A stretch of DNA of 38,991 nt from an uncultured Oscillospiraceae bacterium (GTDB taxonomy: Bacteria; Bacillota; Clostridia; Oscillospirales; Oscillospiraceae): the NCBI GenBank assembly GCA_949935795.1, contig CATLFX010000023.1, positions 1 through 38,991 on the forward strand, read 5' to 3'. The position numbers and the translations under genes were made by a program. Shown here one piece after another: positions 6,506 to 38,991 of this stretch (its first letter is position 1; every line of letters starts with the position of its first letter). Below the pieces are notes generated by a model. It was not told the DNA's origin. It did not search any database and was given only the letters and a program-made list of their open reading frames with translations.

Positions 6506-6662
6506 GAGGGAATGCAGGGCCGCATCGTACCAGCCCTGATGGATAACCCTCCTATTCATTGAACCGTGATCCTATCAGGGATTATAGCCCGAATACGGGT
6601 TATTGTCAATAGACGGGGTATCCTATACGATGAGGACAGCTGAATGAAAAGGCGGTGCGGCT

Positions 6663-6911: not shown

Positions 6912-7706
6912 TCAAAGGGCCTCCGTGCCCCAGGCCTCAAACTGGCTCAGCGCCGGGAAGGGTGACGGGCCCTCCGCCTGGATCAGCTCGCCCAGCTTCA
7001 GCCATTCCACCGTCCGGGGCCGGATGGGGAAGGACTGGGGCCGCGCGGTCTTGACCAGGGACAGCGTCTCGGCGCTGCCGTCGGAGAAGGTGACTTTGGC
7101 GCTGGTCCAATAGTTGTCGTGGGGGAAGTCCGCCCGGAGGACCAGCCGCAGCTCATCGATGGTGACGGGGCGGCCAAAGCTGAGCGTCCACTCCGCCTTG
7201 GGGTCCCGGTTGATGCCCCAGCTCTGGTAGGGCCACTCGCCGTGGCTGGCGTTTTCGCACACGCCGTCGATGGCGTTGTAGGCCGCGAAAACCGCCTCGC
7301 CCCGGGTCTCCACATTGGCCTTGCTGTGGGGGAAGAACCCGTTGTCCCCGTGCTGGTCGTAGGGGTTGAAGGCCAGGTTGCGGCGGGCGGCGGTCTCGTG
7401 GGGCTCCGCCAGGCGGGCGCGGATCAGATGCCGCCCGCCGGTGAAGCACTTGGGCGAGAACACGATCCGGTCGGCCCCGAAGGGGATGTGATACCAGAGC
7501 TCCCGGCCCGCGGCGTAAACGAGGGCCGGCGGCAGGCTGTCCTCAAACTGCACCACGCAGAAGCAGGGATAATCGCAGTCCAGCACAATGCTGTCGCCCT
7601 CCTGGTACTCGTTGGTGTAGACCAGGCTGACGCTTTCCGCATCGGCCCCGGTCAGCATGGTGCGGCCCTGGCCGCTGACGACTTTCAGCTTCAATGTATT
7701 TTCCAT
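6912..7706 (-). CDS. Discoidin/F5-8C-like (galactose-binding fold) protein
   Basis: A 264-residue protein without signal peptide or membrane segment. Residues 1-105 form a beta-rich region. From NLAFNPYDQH (about 110) onward it resembles a discoidin/F5-8 type C module, with AYNAIDGVCEN, SWGINRDPKAEWTLSFGRPVTIDELRLVLR and VTFSDGS. Such modules bind carbohydrates, but a cytosolic one is odd and the ligand is unknown. The start is ATG 7704-7706 with GGGAGG seven bases upstream; the longer frame to 7967 overlaps the preceding gene and is rejected. It is the last gene of the importer operon, 17 bases after its neighbour. Confidence 0.7.
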   Translation of the reverse strand: MENTLKLKVVSGQGRTMLTGADAESVSLVYTNEYQEGDSIVLDCDYPCFCVVQFEDSLPPALVYAAGRELWYHIPFGADRIVFSPKCFTGGRHLIRARLAEPHETAARRNLAFNPYDQHGDNGFFPHSKANVETRGEAVFAAYNAIDGVCENASHGEWPYQSWGINRDPKAEWTLSFGRPVTIDELRLVLRADFPHDNYWTSAKVTFSDGSAETLSLVKTARPQSFPIRPRTVEWLKLGELIQAEGPSPFPALSQFEAWGTEAL

Positions 7707-7723
7707 GGCGGTCCTCCCAGTGA

Positions 7724-8983
7724 TTAAAGGTTCCAGCCGGAGTTCAGGGTAAAGCCGTCGTAGAGGCCGGTCACCGCCGGCGGCGGGCCGACGGTCCATA
7801 TGGACCGGCCCTGGCAGAGGACGGCGCCGATCCCCTCCGCCGGCAGGCGCTCCAGGGCCTCCCGGTCCAGCGTTTCGGCGATAAAGACGGGGGCGGCCTC
7901 CATGGCCAGCCGGGCGCAGCTCCAGTCCCCGGCGTACACCGCCAGGAAATCCGCCGCGCCCCTGCACAGCCCGTCGGCGGGGTCCAGGTACATGGTGCGG
8001 GTTTCGCCGTTTTTCAGCCGGTAACAGCGGGTCTCGTCCCCCGCCGCCGCGGGAAAGGCCCGCAGGCTCACCAGGCTCATGGGCCCCTGGTACTCCATGG
8101 TCCCCGCCTGGACGGCGCGGCCGTCCGCCAGTCCCATCAGATTCAGCCCGTAGCGGCCCTCCCTGCCGTCCAGGCAGCGGGCGAAGCCGTCCACGCTGGA
8201 GACGGCGCCGTTCGTAAACCCGTTTTCCGCCAGGGTATCCGCCAGATAGTCGGCGATAAAGGCGTTTTCCATCCAGCCGAAGTCCAAAAAGCGCTGGACG
8301 CCGTTCTCCCGGGCGTAGGCCAGATAGTCCTCCGACACCCGCAGGCGGATTTGACTGCCGCCCAGCAGCTCCACGTCGATGGAGGCCGGGTCCCGGGCGT
8401 AGGCGGCGACGGCGGCGTATTCCTCCGCCACCGACCGGCTGAGCCGGGGGTCGAAGTCCGCCAATTGGCTGTCGTCCTCGCAGTCAAACAGGTCGCCGTA
8501 CCGGGCGTACACCGGGCCCAGGTAGACGTTTCGGTCCCCCGCCTCCCGGACGGCCTCAAAGGCCCGGTACAGGGCCGGGTCCACCTCCAGCGCCTCGTTG
8601 GGGCGGTCATTGATCTCCTTCAGGTTGACCACGCCCTCGAAGCTCATCTCGGTGTGAAAGAGCTGGAAGGCGGTGCGGCAGGCCTGGGTGTACAGCTCAT
8701 TCAGGTCCTGGCCCTCCTTCCGGGCGGACCGTCCCGACGCCCCCACCTCGTACAGGAGCACAAATTCGTCTCCGCAGGTGGGGCCGCCGGAGGTCCCGGC
8801 CTGGATGGTCTGCCAGCCCGGTTCCGTGGAGAAGAACTGGCTGACGGCGTAGGTCAGCGCCCCCACGCCGATCAGCAGGAATATCACCGCAGCCACCGCC
8901 CGCAGGGCGGTTTTCTCCTTGGACAGCTCGATTTTTTCCACGGGTTTTTCCTGGGGCCGCTTGTCTCTCGCGCCGCGCCCCAA
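7724..8983 (-). CDS. Membrane-anchored, degenerate ApbE-like protein
   Basis: About 419 residues. A charged N-terminus is followed by one membrane helix (about 29-49), with the rest predicted outside. The soluble part follows the order of ApbE (FAD:protein FMN transferase) segments: a VNLKEIND/VDPALYRAFEAV region (about 122-145), LDFGWMENAFIADYLADTLAENGF (given as LDFGWMENAF, then IADYLADTLA) where ApbE has DLGGIAKGYA, and MYLDPADG where ApbE has HIIDPRTG. The conserved Gly, His and acidic Mg ligands are mostly lost, so it is probably not catalytic. The start is TTG 8983, three bases after the previous stop, or a GTG near 8942; neither has a strong ribosome site. The family call is my inference. 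Confidence 0.5.
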   Translation of the reverse strand: MGRGARDKRPQEKPVEKIELSKEKTALRAVAAVIFLLIGVGALTYAVSQFFSTEPGWQTIQAGTSGGPTCGDEFVLLYEVGASGRSARKEGQDLNELYTQACRTAFQLFHTEMSFEGVVNLKEINDRPNEALEVDPALYRAFEAVREAGDRNVYLGPVYARYGDLFDCEDDSQLADFDPRLSRSVAEEYAAVAAYARDPASIDVELLGGSQIRLRVSEDYLAYARENGVQRFLDFGWMENAFIADYLADTLAENGFTNGAVSSVDGFARCLDGREGRYGLNLMGLADGRAVQAGTMEYQGPMSLVSLRAFPAAAGDETRCYRLKNGETRTMYLDPADGLCRGAADFLAVYAGDWSCARLAMEAAPVFIAETLDREALERLPAEGIGAVLCQGRSIWTVGPPPAVTGLYDGFTLNSGWNL

Positions 8984-17367: not shown

Positions 17368-17396
17368 ATTATAGCGAATTACTGGAGCTGTGTCAA
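17368..17396 (-). promoter_or_regulatory. Consensus promoter of the importer operon
   Basis: On the minus strand perfect TTGACA (17396-17391), a 17-base spacer and perfect TATAAT (17373-17368). Transcription would start near 17361, giving a ~310-base leader before the receptor gene. Three more TTGACA motifs lie just upstream (17438-17443, 17455-17460, 17466-17471). Confidence 0.85.
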
Positions 17397-36537: not shown

Positions 36538-36720
36538 TTATTTTCTGTCCAAATCCGCTTTGAGCAAATCAATCCCGGCCATAATTGCATCTGTTCTAGT
36601 CGAATCCAACCTATCGGCACACTCTTGAATTTTTTGCGCCTCCTGGTCGGAAATTCGGATTGTAATTTTATTGGTCCTGGATTGTTCACCTTTTGGCGGA
36701 CGACCTGTCCTTGGAGACAC
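36538..36720 (-). CDS. Ribbon-helix-helix (CopG/Arc-type) regulator
   Basis: A 60-residue protein: a basic arm (SPRTGRPPKGEQSRTNK), a beta strand ITIRIS, then two helices DQEAQKIQECADRL and TRTDAIMAGIDLLKADL, the RHH layout. It starts at GTG 36718-36720 with GAGG upstream. The stop codon lies in a TAAGAG..CTCTTA hairpin (36497-36540). The promoter is flanked by a perfect inverted repeat (36736-36775), the likely autoregulatory operator. Similar proteins act as plasmid or phage copy and antitoxin regulators. Confidence 0.8.
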   Translation of the reverse strand: MSPRTGRPPKGEQSRTNKITIRISDQEAQKIQECADRLDSTRTDAIMAGIDLLKADLDRK

Positions 36721-36735
36721 CTTTCATCACCTCAC

Positions 36736-36780
36736 TTTTGGTCGTGCTTATATAATAACTTATGTACGACCAAAAATCAA
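36736..36780 (-). promoter_or_regulatory. RHH gene promoter inside a 10-bp inverted-repeat operator
   Basis: On the minus strand TTGATT (36780-36775), 17 bases, TATTAT (36757-36752). The perfect repeat TTTTGGTCGT (36736-36745) / ACGACCAAAA (36766-36775) places one arm in the spacer beside the -35 and the other just after the -10. The arm centres are 30 bp apart, about three helical turns, suited to two RHH dimers on one DNA face. Confidence 0.75.
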
Positions 36781-36790
36781 GAGGGTTTTC

Positions 36791-36831
36791 AAAAAAAGTT
36801 TTGCCTCCGCCAAAATCAGCGGAGGCAAAAC
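36791..36831 (-). terminator. Terminator of the lipoprotein gene
   Basis: A perfect 13-bp stem, GTTTTGCCTCCGC with GCGGAGGCAAAAC, and an 8-base loop, then T7 on the minus strand (36797-36791). Confidence 0.92.
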
Positions 36832-36835
36832 TCGT

Positions 36836-37753
36836 TTATTTTGCTTTCACAACAATAGATTCAGTATCTTCGATTGTTTCCCAATCATCTGTCCCAAAAA
36901 TATGGAAGGAACATTCTATTTCCTCAATGCTTTCGATCCCGCTTTCCTCAATGGAACTATTCATAAACGTTATCCCGTCTATTGCATATTTCCCGTCACA
37001 AATCTCCGAAGAAAAAATGGTGTCCATCATGAACCCGTTTACAGATGTGTCTCTTGTTTGAATCGTTACATTTTTCCCACTTTTATTTTCGATAAATACC
37101 ACAAGAGACGGTCCAAAAATAGAATCCCCGTCAGAAACTCCTTTTGAAACAATGCGGATTCCATTTCCACTATATAATTCCTCTCCAGAGTCATCAAAAG
37201 AATAGACGTAAGAATCCGAAGCAGATGTTTTTATTTGAACAGTGTTTGTGTCAAGATATGTTTCCAACGATTCATCAAAAACATGAAAAGAAAATTCCAT
37301 ATCTGCCAGCGTTTCGATTCCGCAGGCTTGGAGAGACGAAGAAGAAAACGTAATCGAATCGTTTGCCTTTTTCCCTGGCGCAACGTCAGAAGAAAACATG
37401 GTTTCAACCATGTAGCCGTTGACAGATGCATTTCTTGATTGGAAAGTAAGCTTTTTTTCTGTGTTGTTTTCAATTTGAACTTTTAATTCAGGACCAAATA
37501 ACCCTTCCTTATCAAGGCCGGTTGCGGTTATTTTTACATCACTTTCGTCACAAAGAACCTGATTTTCCACAGTCTCACCAGAAAGCTGCTCTGGCTCTTT
37601 CGTTTCCACTTTATCGCCGCCTGCGTTGCTTACAACTGGAGCTTCACTGAGCGCTGGGGCCTCGCTGGGCGTGGAGCCAGATTCTTCTGCACTACACGCG
37701 CAGAATGAAGCAAAGAGCGCAAGCGATAGAATTAAACCAACTATTTTCTTCAT
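36836..37753 (-). CDS. Lipoprotein with two tandem homologous domains
   Basis: A 305-residue protein. The signal peptide ends at lipobox SFCAC (Cys20), followed by a Ser/Pro/Glu linker. Two ~105-residue beta-rich domains follow (about 70-175 and 198-303), with matching motifs: LFGPELKVQIENNTEKK / IFGPSLVVFIENKSGKN, ASVNGYMVETMFSSDV / TSVNGFMMDTIFSSEI and FSFHVFDE / CSFHIFGT. The fold is probably Ig-like; function unknown. The gene is clearly richer in A+T than the chromosomal genes, suggesting recent transfer. ATG 37751-37753 has AAGGGGAT upstream. Confidence 0.8.
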   Translation of the reverse strand: MKKIVGLILSLALFASFCACSAEESGSTPSEAPALSEAPVVSNAGGDKVETKEPEQLSGETVENQVLCDESDVKITATGLDKEGLFGPELKVQIENNTEKKLTFQSRNASVNGYMVETMFSSDVAPGKKANDSITFSSSSLQACGIETLADMEFSFHVFDESLETYLDTNTVQIKTSASDSYVYSFDDSGEELYSGNGIRIVSKGVSDGDSIFGPSLVVFIENKSGKNVTIQTRDTSVNGFMMDTIFSSEICDGKYAIDGITFMNSSIEESGIESIEEIECSFHIFGTDDWETIEDTESIVVKAK

Positions 37754-37798
37754 TGTCCAATCCCCTTAAAAAATTTAGGCAGTATGCCTATGTTCAGC

Positions 37799-37827
37799 AT
37801 AATACCACATCATATTATAAAATTCAA
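37799..37827 (-). promoter_or_regulatory. Promoter of the lipoprotein gene
   Basis: On the minus strand TTGAAT (37827-37822), 17 bases ending in TGG, TATTAT (37804-37799). The surrounding 37754-37930 is AT-rich and otherwise empty. Confidence 0.65.
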
Positions 37828-37937
37828 CAAAATATTTACATTTTATGAACGGCATGATAGTTTATATTGTGACGGGGATTTTACGGTAATAATTATTTGT
37901 TCGAGAAATTTTTGAAAAACCATCCCCGCCTTGCCGG

Positions 37938-37966
37938 TTGACAAAGCGGAGGACATTGGCTATAAT
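37938..37966 (+). promoter_or_regulatory. Perfect consensus promoter of the antisense RNA
   Basis: TTGACA (37938-37943), 17 bases, TATAAT (37961-37966). It faces the equally perfect promoter at 38245-38273, 278 bases away. Confidence 0.85.
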
Positions 37967-37972
37967 AATCAC

Positions 37973-38244
37973 GAAAGGGCCACTGCTACAGCGGTCAGCC
38001 CTGGACATTCAGTACAATGGTTCTATACTGACTGCCTGAGCCACCAGGCAGTCAGTACGCTTTTGGGGCCGTGGCAATCATCAAGAACAGCACAATGATG
38101 AACCACACCAGGATACGCAGGGCTTTCGCCCCGCGCCCGTCTCCCATCCGCATCACCTCCCTTCTCAGGGAAGTGGCTGACCGCCTTTATGTAACAGCGG
38201 ACCCTTTCTCCCTCAATCGGGCAAGACCCGGTCGAGGTTTTTTT
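37973..38244 (+). ncRNA. Candidate antisense (antitoxin) RNA, about 270 nt
   Basis: It is predicted from the promoter at 37938-37966 to a terminator at 38211-38244, whose 11-bp stem CCTCAATCGGG/CCCGGTCGAGG (one A-C mismatch, one G-U) is followed by T7. A 5' hairpin (37977-38001) and a perfect 13-bp hairpin, TACTGACTGCCTG/CAGGCAGTCAGTA (38026-38057), lie before the part complementary to the peptide gene. It would cover the whole peptide mRNA including its ribosome site. No open frame on this strand has a ribosome site. Confidence 0.65.
38052..38147 (-). CDS. 31-residue hydrophobic peptide, candidate type I toxin
   Basis: The peptide starts MGDGRGAKALR, followed by one membrane segment ILVWFIIVLFLMIA and tail TAPKAY. 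The start is ATG 38145-38147 because GGAGG (38156-38160) is 8 bases upstream; an ATG at 38153 is too close. The stop codon lies in the right arm of the hairpin 38026-38057. The promoter is the perfect one at 38245-38273, giving a ~90-base leader. A charged N-terminus plus a single membrane helix in about 30 residues is the form of membrane-acting type I toxins. It does not resemble the Fst, TxpA or Hol_Tox sequences that I know. Confidence 0.65.
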   Translation of the reverse strand: MGDGRGAKALRILVWFIIVLFLMIATAPKAY

Positions 38245-38273
38245 ATTATATCCGCCGCACTGCACTTTGTCAA
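38245..38273 (-). promoter_or_regulatory. Perfect consensus promoter of the hydrophobic peptide gene
   Basis: On the minus strand TTGACA (38273-38268), 17 bases, TATAAT (38250-38245). Transcription would start near 38238, exactly inside the T-tract that ends the opposing RNA, so the 5' end of one RNA coincides with the 3' end of the other. Confidence 0.85.
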
Positions 38274-38286
38274 ATCATGCCGTAAA

Positions 38287-38322
38287 GGAACGAGGCCGGG
38301 GATCACTCCCCGGCCTCGCTCC
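38287..38322. terminator. Terminator of the endolysin gene
   Basis: A 16-bp stem (38287-38302 with 38307-38322) with one G-U/A-C position and a 4-base loop. T5 follows on the plus side and TTT on the minus side. It lies 4 bases past the minus-strand stop codon at 38326 and just upstream of the peptide promoter. Confidence 0.8.
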
Positions 38323-38325
38323 TTT

Positions 38326-38991
38326 TTAGCCCAGCACCTCCAGCCGGTCCAGCGTAGTCATGACCCGGCAGTAGTCCTCCGAGAGATTGAGCACGTTGTC
38401 CTCCAGGCTGTTGGGGTCGGGGTCGCTCTCGCCCCGGAGGGCCCCGAGCTCCATGAGCTTGCGGATGGTGGGCCGGTAGCTGTCCGGTACGTCCTTCAGC
38501 GTTCTGTACTTGGGCATATTCTCGTCCTCCTTTTCATGCTCCTGGGCGGCGTAATCCACCCAGGGCAGCTTGCCGTGCTTGGTCCACCTGCGGCTCCCGG
38601 CGGTGCCGGAGATCAGCTTGGCGGAGACGTTGGCCAGTGTGGACCGCTGCACCCCGCCCTTCCACTTGGGTGTGGCCTCCACCACCACGCCGCCGCCCAC
38701 ATACACCCCGATGTGGCCATCCATCCAGACGGCCTCGCCGGGGACGATGGTGGAGAAATCGGTGGATACGTCCCGGCAGCAGTCGATCATCTTTTTTGCA
38801 TCATAGTCGGGTACGCCATTACAAGCGTACCCCGCCCCGCCGTAGGTGCGGGACAGGTCGCCGTCCCAGCCCCACAGAATGCCCTTGATGAGGCCCACAC
38901 AGTCGAACAGGAAACCCTTATCCTTGATGGCGGTGGCCTGGGGCAGCCACTGCCGGTTGGTCTTGGCGTTGCTGCCCTGAGTGGTGGCCCG
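38326..38991 (-). CDS. Phage-type NlpC/P60-like endolysin, 5' end outside the window
   Basis: At least 222 codons are present; the frame is open to the window edge, so the start is missing. The catalytic Cys lies in FLFDCVGLIKGILWGW, and the expected His in GEAVWMDGHIGVYVGGG, the NlpC/P60 (or CHAP-like) Cys-His arrangement of peptidoglycan peptidases. After an acidic linker (EHEKEDEN), a ~60-residue C-terminal segment, KYRTLKDVPDSYRPTIRKL, is probably a wall-binding or accessory domain. It marks this region as prophage or integrative-element DNA. Confidence 0.82.
   Translation of the reverse strand, partial: RATTQGSNAKTNRQWLPQATAIKDKGFLFDCVGLIKGILWGWDGDLSRTYGGAGYACNGVPDYDAKKMIDCCRDVSTDFSTIVPGEAVWMDGHIGVYVGGGVVVEATPKWKGGVQRSTLANVSAKLISGTAGSRRWTKHGKLPWVDYAAQEHEKEDENMPKYRTLKDVPDSYRPTIRKLMELGALRGESDPDPNSLEDNVLNLSEDYCRVMTTLDRLEVLG

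Follow-up and report, generated by a model that had tools for sequence, protein, structure and literature searches.

Facing promoters around a 31-codon frame

The window analysed here is a 38,991-nt stretch of contig CATLFX010000023.1 from an uncultured Oscillospiraceae bacterium (GCA_949935795.1; assembly of 2.2 Mb, about 70% complete). It holds two promoters that point at each other, one on the plus strand at 37938-37966 and one on the minus strand at 38273-38245, and both match TTGACA-17-TATAAT at 12 of 12 consensus positions, as a sequence-only reading of the locus had claimed. The minus-strand promoter would produce the mRNA of a 31-residue membrane peptide, MGDGRGAKALRILVWFIIVLFLMIATAPKAY (38055-38147, minus strand; TGA stop at 38052-38054), whose frame is kept in relatives. 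An in-frame ATG further upstream (38153, minus strand) directly abuts GGGAGGTG and would give 33 residues; relatives keep the second start, the ATG at 38147 (once GTG, in L046), 6 nt downstream of GGGAGGTG, and it is this 31-residue frame that bears out the single-helix peptide with its own ribosome site proposed earlier for the minus transcript.

From the plus-strand promoter an antisense RNA of about 270 nt is predicted (37973-38244, plus strand; fold z-score -8.7), delimited by that promoter, with a start at about 37973, and by a terminator at 38211-38244. The terminator consists of a hairpin (38211-38237) followed by seven T residues (38238-38244) and lies at the predicted 5' end of the peptide mRNA, so that the plus transcript would indeed end, as had been proposed, where the minus transcript begins. 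Because the terminator abuts the minus-strand -10 element, the predicted RNA could base-pair with almost all of the minus transcript. A terminator-like hairpin for the peptide mRNA lies at 37924-37951 (minus strand), and the -35 element of the antisense promoter falls inside it.

Perfect promoter matches with 16-18 nt spacing number four in the window, versus 0.00 expected from 100 shuffles, and 51 in the whole assembly, where the reversed pattern gives none. Among these 51, the only perfect pairs that face each other at a distance of 450 bp or less are the window pair and that of a second module copy on contig C44, which is 90% identical to the window module over query positions 1-290. The two further perfect TTGACA-N17-TATAAT promoters of the window lie at 6581-6609 and 17368-17396, both on the minus strand.

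Conservation of the peptide and of the transcription signals

The 356-bp module was used as a DNA query against 99 genomes (E up to 0.01), which gave matches, some of them short, in 28 genomes with the own genome counted. We took the 32 loci around those matches, and nhmmer over these loci and the window yielded 33 hits, 28 of which, window included, carry the 31-codon frame of one peptide family. The other five comprise three with an MPL-type peptide, one with an MEY-type peptide (the 23-residue MEYLSV... of L062) and one, L061, without a peptide, which was dropped to leave 32 modules for counting. For alignment (A1) we kept 40 of the 69 rows assigned to family 1 by a regular expression (86 non-redundant rows, 99 in total), excluding shorter peptides, MPL-type rows mislabelled by the expression, and L040, L054 and L118; 38 rows are gap-free, L105 and L176 being gapped at the start codon. 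Because A1 rows were chosen for having the peptide, the absence of stops from the 38 gap-free rows is by construction, and our figure for frame conservation comes from the unselected set (28/33).

Conservation of the frame was a point on which the sequence-only reading could have failed, and in addition to the 31 codons kept in these 28 hits, the peptide frame has the lowest values of all six frames, with pN/pS at 0.61 and median dN/dS at 0.47. As substitution patterns go, a pN/pS of 0.61 is moderate, not strong, purifying selection; length and hydrophobicity are nonetheless kept. Codon position 2 is the least variable in A1 (p = 0.0004 versus position 3), and the difference between positions 1 and 3 is not significant (p = 0.26). 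The best 16-residue mean Kyte-Doolittle value averages 2.88 in the peptide frame over 38 sequences, versus 0.57 and 0.16 in the other two frames of the same strand, which leaves the peptide frame as the sole hydrophobic one. R5, L10, R11, P28 and A30 are conspicuous in the 38 aligned family rows, hydrophobic residues predominate at positions 12-26, and every row (38/38) has a net positive charge over residues 1-11; the 31-residue peptide has the form of the small hydrophobic single-helix proteins of the type I toxin-antitoxin class.

The window peptide matches zero families in Pfam and NCBIfam at E up to 1, libraries that we take to include Fst, Ldr and Hok models, and has one weak match in PHROG (E 0.1). 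It fails the Hol_Tox profile, and a search of the own genome for PF16935 (Hol_Tox) was negative at E up to 0.001. A tblastn search of phages with the peptide (E up to 10) and a DNA search of plasmids with the module gave no match; a DNA search of phages with the module returned one unannotated faecal record. The library searches support the view that the peptide family is new to Pfam, NCBIfam and, but for that weak match, PHROG, in keeping with the earlier remark that the peptide fits no familiar toxin family.

Promoters were scored over the 32 modules as the best of the region on either strand. The antisense promoter scores 12/12 in 27 modules and 11/12 in the remaining five, and the sense (peptide) promoter is variable, reaching 11/12 or better in 17 modules and scoring 7-10 in the other 15. 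Because the query DNA included the promoters, this set is partly selected for them; a set selected by its leader (129 matches, below) provides a promoter check free of that selection. A strong, kept antisense promoter combined with a weaker toxin promoter would be what a held-down toxin needs. An antisense terminator-like site is present in 24/32 modules and was not found in the other eight (no shuffled control for that strand), its T-tract lying either at the toxin start (for example in the window, L049, L052 and L053) or upstream of the toxin -35. On the toxin strand a terminator was found in 16/32 modules (shuffled rate 0.066) and not in the other 16, and in 11/32, window included, it holds the -35 element of the antisense promoter.

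A conserved fold of the peptide mRNA

The predicted fold of the minus transcript (-146.6 kcal/mol, z -9.6) contains the perfect 13-bp hairpin around the peptide stop codon that had been described before (38026-38057, minus strand; arms 38026-38038 and 38045-38057, 100% complementary). What goes beyond the earlier account, besides the minus-strand terminator-like hairpin at 37924-37951, is a hairpin enclosing the ribosome-binding site (38155-38174, minus strand) and a long 5'/3' panhandle. The latter consists of an outer helix, whose 3' strand (37973-37989, minus strand) pairs with the 5' leader around 38190-38208, and a clamp, in which the 5' strand GGCGGTCAGCC (38175-38185, minus strand) pairs with the 3' strand GGCTGACCGCT (37990-38000, minus strand), as assigned from fold and covariation. 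The A1 consensus correspondingly comprises the outer helix, an 11-bp GGCGGTYRGCC clamp, an 8-bp ribosome-site hairpin, a small in-frame hairpin and the stop-codon hairpin. Rfam 15 gave no match above gathering score over 36700-38991.

Across A1, 97.4% of cells pair, versus 36-52% with partners slid, two-sided changes occur at 25 of 47 pairs, and 0/500 shuffles reach four of five covariation measures and 3/500 the fifth, on a structure derived from the same sequences it was counted on and with related rows that are not independent. By helix, the outer panhandle (helix 1) has two-sided changes at 9/10 pairs and 94.2% of cells paired, the clamp has 99.8% of cells paired over 40 sequences, the ribosome-site hairpin (helix 3) has 98.7% paired with two-sided changes at 3/8 pairs, and the stop-codon hairpin has two-sided changes at 7/12 pairs.

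An A-C cell on the peptide strand is a G-U pair on the antisense strand, and the excess of G-U among non-Watson-Crick cells on the peptide strand (172 G-U versus 25 A-C in A1, and 52 versus 0 in the clamp, counted as cells and not as independent events) therefore marks the peptide mRNA as the strand whose fold is kept. The stop hairpin is exceptional, with 17 G-U and 11 A-C, and so may matter in both RNAs; our best guess is that mRNA and antisense RNA would make their first contact there.

One RNA scaffold with several peptides

Type I modules are hard to find because their peptides are tiny and diverge fast, and a conserved, covarying leader would offer a search handle that is independent of the peptide. 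We scanned viral contigs and genome contigs with the leader pattern GGCGGTYRGCCACTN{7,13}RGGRGGTG and found 25 stretches in the former and at least 118 in the latter. Among the matches listed are the genera Oscillibacter, Flavonifractor, Pseudoflavonifractor, Butyricicoccus, Agathobaculum, Evtepia, Anaeromassilibacillus and Acutalibacter and, as Bacilli titles, Cytobacillus, Lederbergia, Bacillus, Anoxybacillus, Ammoniphilus and Oceanobacillus; class Bacilli was confirmed for Ammoniphilus and Anoxybacillus, and the other four presumably belong to it as well. Within the matches listed from this one scan, the leader retrieves several unrelated types of peptide, and the record titles name Oscillospiraceae, Ruminococcaceae and a range of Bacilli.

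Feature counts were made on the 129 of 140 distinct leader matches with enough downstream DNA, a set that partly overlaps the earlier homologue set (e.g. L150, L154). A facing promoter of at least 10/12 is present at 122/129 (shuffled 3.6), the 3' clamp at 101/129 (shuffled 1.1), a small hydrophobic ORF at 119/129 (shuffled 14.3), and all three together at 97/129 (shuffled 0.0). Three genome-contig matches (L100, L178 and L204) lack every other feature and are chance matches. The 3' clamp strand is not part of the search pattern, and at the two variable clamp positions 71 of 96 leader-selected loci are fully Watson-Crick, versus a shuffled mean of 31.5 (maximum 44 in 2000); with G-U allowed, all 96 are pairable. 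No 3' clamp partner was found by expression in 44/140 leader loci, of which about a third carry Hol_Tox-like peptides, and a partner of the form GGTYARCCGC is present in all four of these that were inspected (L131, L095, L147 and L097).

Although strong conservation of the RNA structure goes together with a variable peptide, as would be expected if the structured RNA were the functional product and the small frame incidental, 31 codons are kept in 28/33 hits, hydrophobicity is limited to one of three frames and a hydrophobic small ORF follows 119 of 129 leaders against 14.3 in shuffles. We rejected such an RNA-only element on frame conservation and regard it as exceedingly unlikely.

Regular expressions applied to 149 leader matches, duplicates included, assigned 77 to the window type or its 24-28-aa kin, 19 to a basic MPL type, 13 to a Hol_Tox-like type and 5 to an MEY/MVEL/MEIL type, leaving 13 uncertain and 22 without a called ORF; some of the latter, among those viewed, are contig ends or a double-leader variant with a later frame start. 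The window peptide family gave no alignment to an MPL, an MEY or the L131 peptide. Five MT-/MV-type peptides borne by the leader were scanned with the Hol_Tox profile (cut-off 23.3 bits): L131 (Anoxybacillus) passes with 44.9, for comparison with 34.5 for BsrG, the L095 type falls just short at 21.8, two score weakly (17.7 and 13.3) and L190 has no profile match. The L131 Hol_Tox peptide had no tblastn match in phages at E up to 1.

The MPL-type peptide (27 aa, basic; L056 near 8025, L057 near 4649, L051 near 595 and near 783) sits on the same RNA scaffold and reads MPLxxTFHVFGxTVTVRIKRDNRHxxx in these three loci, with hydrophobic residues that alternate and are not continuous, and with a weak, sub-threshold likeness to YrzI (E 0.14). 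The MEY type forms adjacent modules at 13857-14501 of L062, from another family of the order, with a third some 6 kb off at 7552-7822, and all three have facing promoters. The predicted mRNA folds of BsrG, L131, L095, L109, L102, L062, L156 and L091 all contain a 5'/3' helix, a ribosome-site hairpin and a post-stop hairpin, with z-scores from -9.6 to -4.2 (60 shuffles); that of L147 is weaker (-2.3).

We lean towards reading this scaffold, made up of the ribosome-site hairpin, the GGCGGTYRGCC panhandle, the stop hairpin and the facing antisense promoter, as a cassette used interchangeably across Bacillota. Four or more types of peptide without detectable similarity, namely LR...PKAC (window), basic MPLxxTFHVxGFTVTxRIKRDNRH, MEYIAA-like and Hol_Tox, would then have been swapped as toxins on a constant RNA, and in some members the antisense -35 would double as part of the stem of the toxin terminator.

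In a leader variant with an additional ribosome-site hairpin, the first GGTG is followed by ATATTCATCTCCTCA and next by GAGAAGGGAGGTG and ATG, which puts the frame start about 40 nt later (L064 3175-3208, L084 4000-4032, L069, L119 and L141); this variant occurs at several places on single phage contigs.

Genomic settings and distribution

The window copy lies between an endolysin gene and a lipoprotein-like gene, near a phage anti-repressor. Its placement beside an endolysin gene had been noted before and is confirmed by the ORF at 38326-38898 (minus strand), which matches PHROG 3513 endolysin (E=4.7e-10) and has no Pfam match at E up to 0.1; a terminator-like hairpin at 38291-38318 lies between this ORF and the module. 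The lipoprotein-like ORF (36836-37753, minus strand) appears by eye to consist of two similar halves and has no Pfam match over the cut-off.

Other copies sit amid phage structural genes (L033, L049 and L054, the last with an endolysin nearby) or near an integrase or DNA-invertase-like gene (L041). Chromosomal settings include a position directly 3' of rplQ, where the rpoA operon ends (L055, 6352-6859), one downstream of rpoA (L051, 5667-7295; a neighbour there had no PHROG match), and sites near V-type ATPase genes (L038, L043) or an rRNA methylase gene (L050). The gene thrE adjoins the module in L039 and L053, with an SLH-domain gene on the far side in L039; clustered relatives of thrE lie at the module in L035 and L047, and thrE/SLH relatives at other loci. 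Eight loci (L034, L035, L039, L040, L042, L046, L047 and L053) have a common sequence upstream of the module, which together with the thrE neighbours suggests a single fixed chromosomal site. The toxin promoter in several of the eight resembles an extended -10 without a good -35. Tandem copies occur in L143, L153, L158, L062, G736 and G742. Judged by these surroundings the module is both mobile and settled, and the copies at plain chromosomal sites make the endolysin neighbour look incidental.

This context bears on whether the peptide could be a small phage lysis accessory, holin- or pinholin-like and antisense-regulated by chance, whose site beside an endolysin reflects its role in lysis. 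The single hydrophobic helix and the endolysins beside the window module and near the L054 module would suit such a role, but the terminator-like hairpin at 38291-38318 parts endolysin from module, and no lysis genes are in view at the copies that follow rplQ, neighbour V-type ATPase genes or lie between thrE and an SLH gene. Consistent linkage to lysis genes, as for a phage holin, was not seen, the rplQ, V-type ATPase and thrE/SLH sites being among the matches listed. Holins are not known to need a conserved antisense promoter or an mRNA panhandle. We rejected a holin role on genome context, and consider lysis accessory function very unlikely.

A chromosomal site common to several species, the thrE/SLH gap, is unusual for a pure addiction module and would fit a non-toxic small membrane regulator, for instance one acting on a transporter or sensor, with an antisense RNA keeping its synthesis under tight control. 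We think such a regulator unlikely, as a toxin is the better fit to the copies in phage regions and in tandem, to the unrelated peptides, Hol_Tox included, on one RNA scaffold, and to an mRNA self-inhibition like that described for bsrG in PMC6562991.

The peptide profile was found in 13/150 genomes of the family, with up to five matches each. The strict leader occurs in 6/245 genomes of the order, own included, and the exact leader in 1/398 genomes of an even phylum sample, the own genome only (reversed controls 0 in both), counts which indicate that the strict leader is patchily distributed and that its pattern overlooks variants.

A probable type I toxin-antitoxin-like module and its relation to known systems

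The frame, the antisense promoter and the covarying mRNA fold are kept, and the leader is common to loci that encode Hol_Tox-like peptides in Bacilli; on these grounds the type I toxin-antitoxin interpretation of the earlier reading is supported as far as sequence can support it. We put at roughly 85% the probability that the window locus is a type I toxin-antitoxin-like module, in which a minus-strand mRNA for a membrane peptide would be held down by a facing antisense RNA. It looks like a new branch of the systems in which RNA restrains a toxic peptide, a new family of peptides being carried on a shared RNA scaffold.

In the mechanism that we propose, the minus promoter would give an mRNA for the 31-residue single-helix membrane peptide, and this mRNA would fold into its 5'/3' panhandle with the ribosome site shut in a hairpin. 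It would thus start out poorly translatable, as its fold and the bsrG precedent suggest. The facing, more strongly conserved promoter would supply an antisense RNA over essentially the whole mRNA, and pairing of the two would stop translation and lead to cleavage of the duplex, probably by RNase III. Were the element lost or antisense synthesis stopped, the peptide would accumulate and would be expected to disturb the membrane.

With bsrG/SR4 and the TxpA/BsrG group the window module shares a small hydrophobic peptide, a ribosome-site hairpin, a long 5'/3' mRNA helix and prophage sites. Its predicted fold has the Hol_Tox/TxpA-BsrG mRNA topology (5'/3' helix, ribosome-site hairpin, post-stop hairpin), the same as that predicted for the BsrG mRNA of phage SPBc2. 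The GGCGGTYRGCC leader letters were looked for in BsrG and not found, so the likeness to BsrG is one of topology only; the leader of the window sequence is also found on the L131 Hol_Tox gene and on those of Hol_Tox-like peptides of other Bacilli. Unlike the BsrG group, the window peptide has no Pfam match (E up to 1) and carries a basic N-terminus instead of a lysine tail. By protein the module is outside Hol_Tox, in its predicted design it would work like bsrG/SR4, and the leader links it to Hol_Tox-like loci.

PMC6562991 describes ribosome sites of bsrG, bsrE and txpA shut in four or five GC pairs, and bsrG and bsrE RNAs that fold alike, with toxin exchange between such loci suggested. In the B. 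subtilis pairs the overlap is at the 3' ends and spans 100 to 140 bp (PMC6562991), whereas the window antisense RNA is predicted to cover the whole mRNA; this predicted full-length overlap and the range of peptides set the module apart from bsrG/SR4. The leader would make toxin exchange on a shared RNA, suggested for bsrG/bsrE in PMC6562991, testable across many hosts. The module would moreover extend type I systems to abundant, little-studied gut Clostridia; a literature search returned no such module described in Oscillospiraceae among the best-ranked matches (for example the best 20 of 8,857 and the best 8 of 1,738), and the leader string GGCGGTTAGCCAC turns up in a single paper, on an unrelated subject.

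In hok/Sok, folding of the toxin mRNA with long-range pairing holds translation off, and both hok/Sok and aapA1/IsoA1 come from other phyla and have other peptides than the window module. A toxin mRNA fold that keeps translation off through long-range pairing is a feature which the window module would share with both systems (for aapA1, abstract of PMC6733600). Members of the Fst/Ldr family are likewise short membrane toxins with an antisense RNA (PMC7472228), and the window peptide differs from them in having no Pfam match at E up to 1. The C. difficile modules CD2517.1-RCd8, CD0956.2-RCd10, CD0977.1-RCd11 and their kin, as described in PMC6563280 and PMC7699646, also encode mostly unannotated small membrane proteins and have convergent antisense RNAs like that of the window, several of them in prophages. 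By description their toxins are set apart, with 34-53 aa, a hydrophobic N-terminus and a lysine-rich positive tail, whereas the window peptide is charged at its N-terminus.
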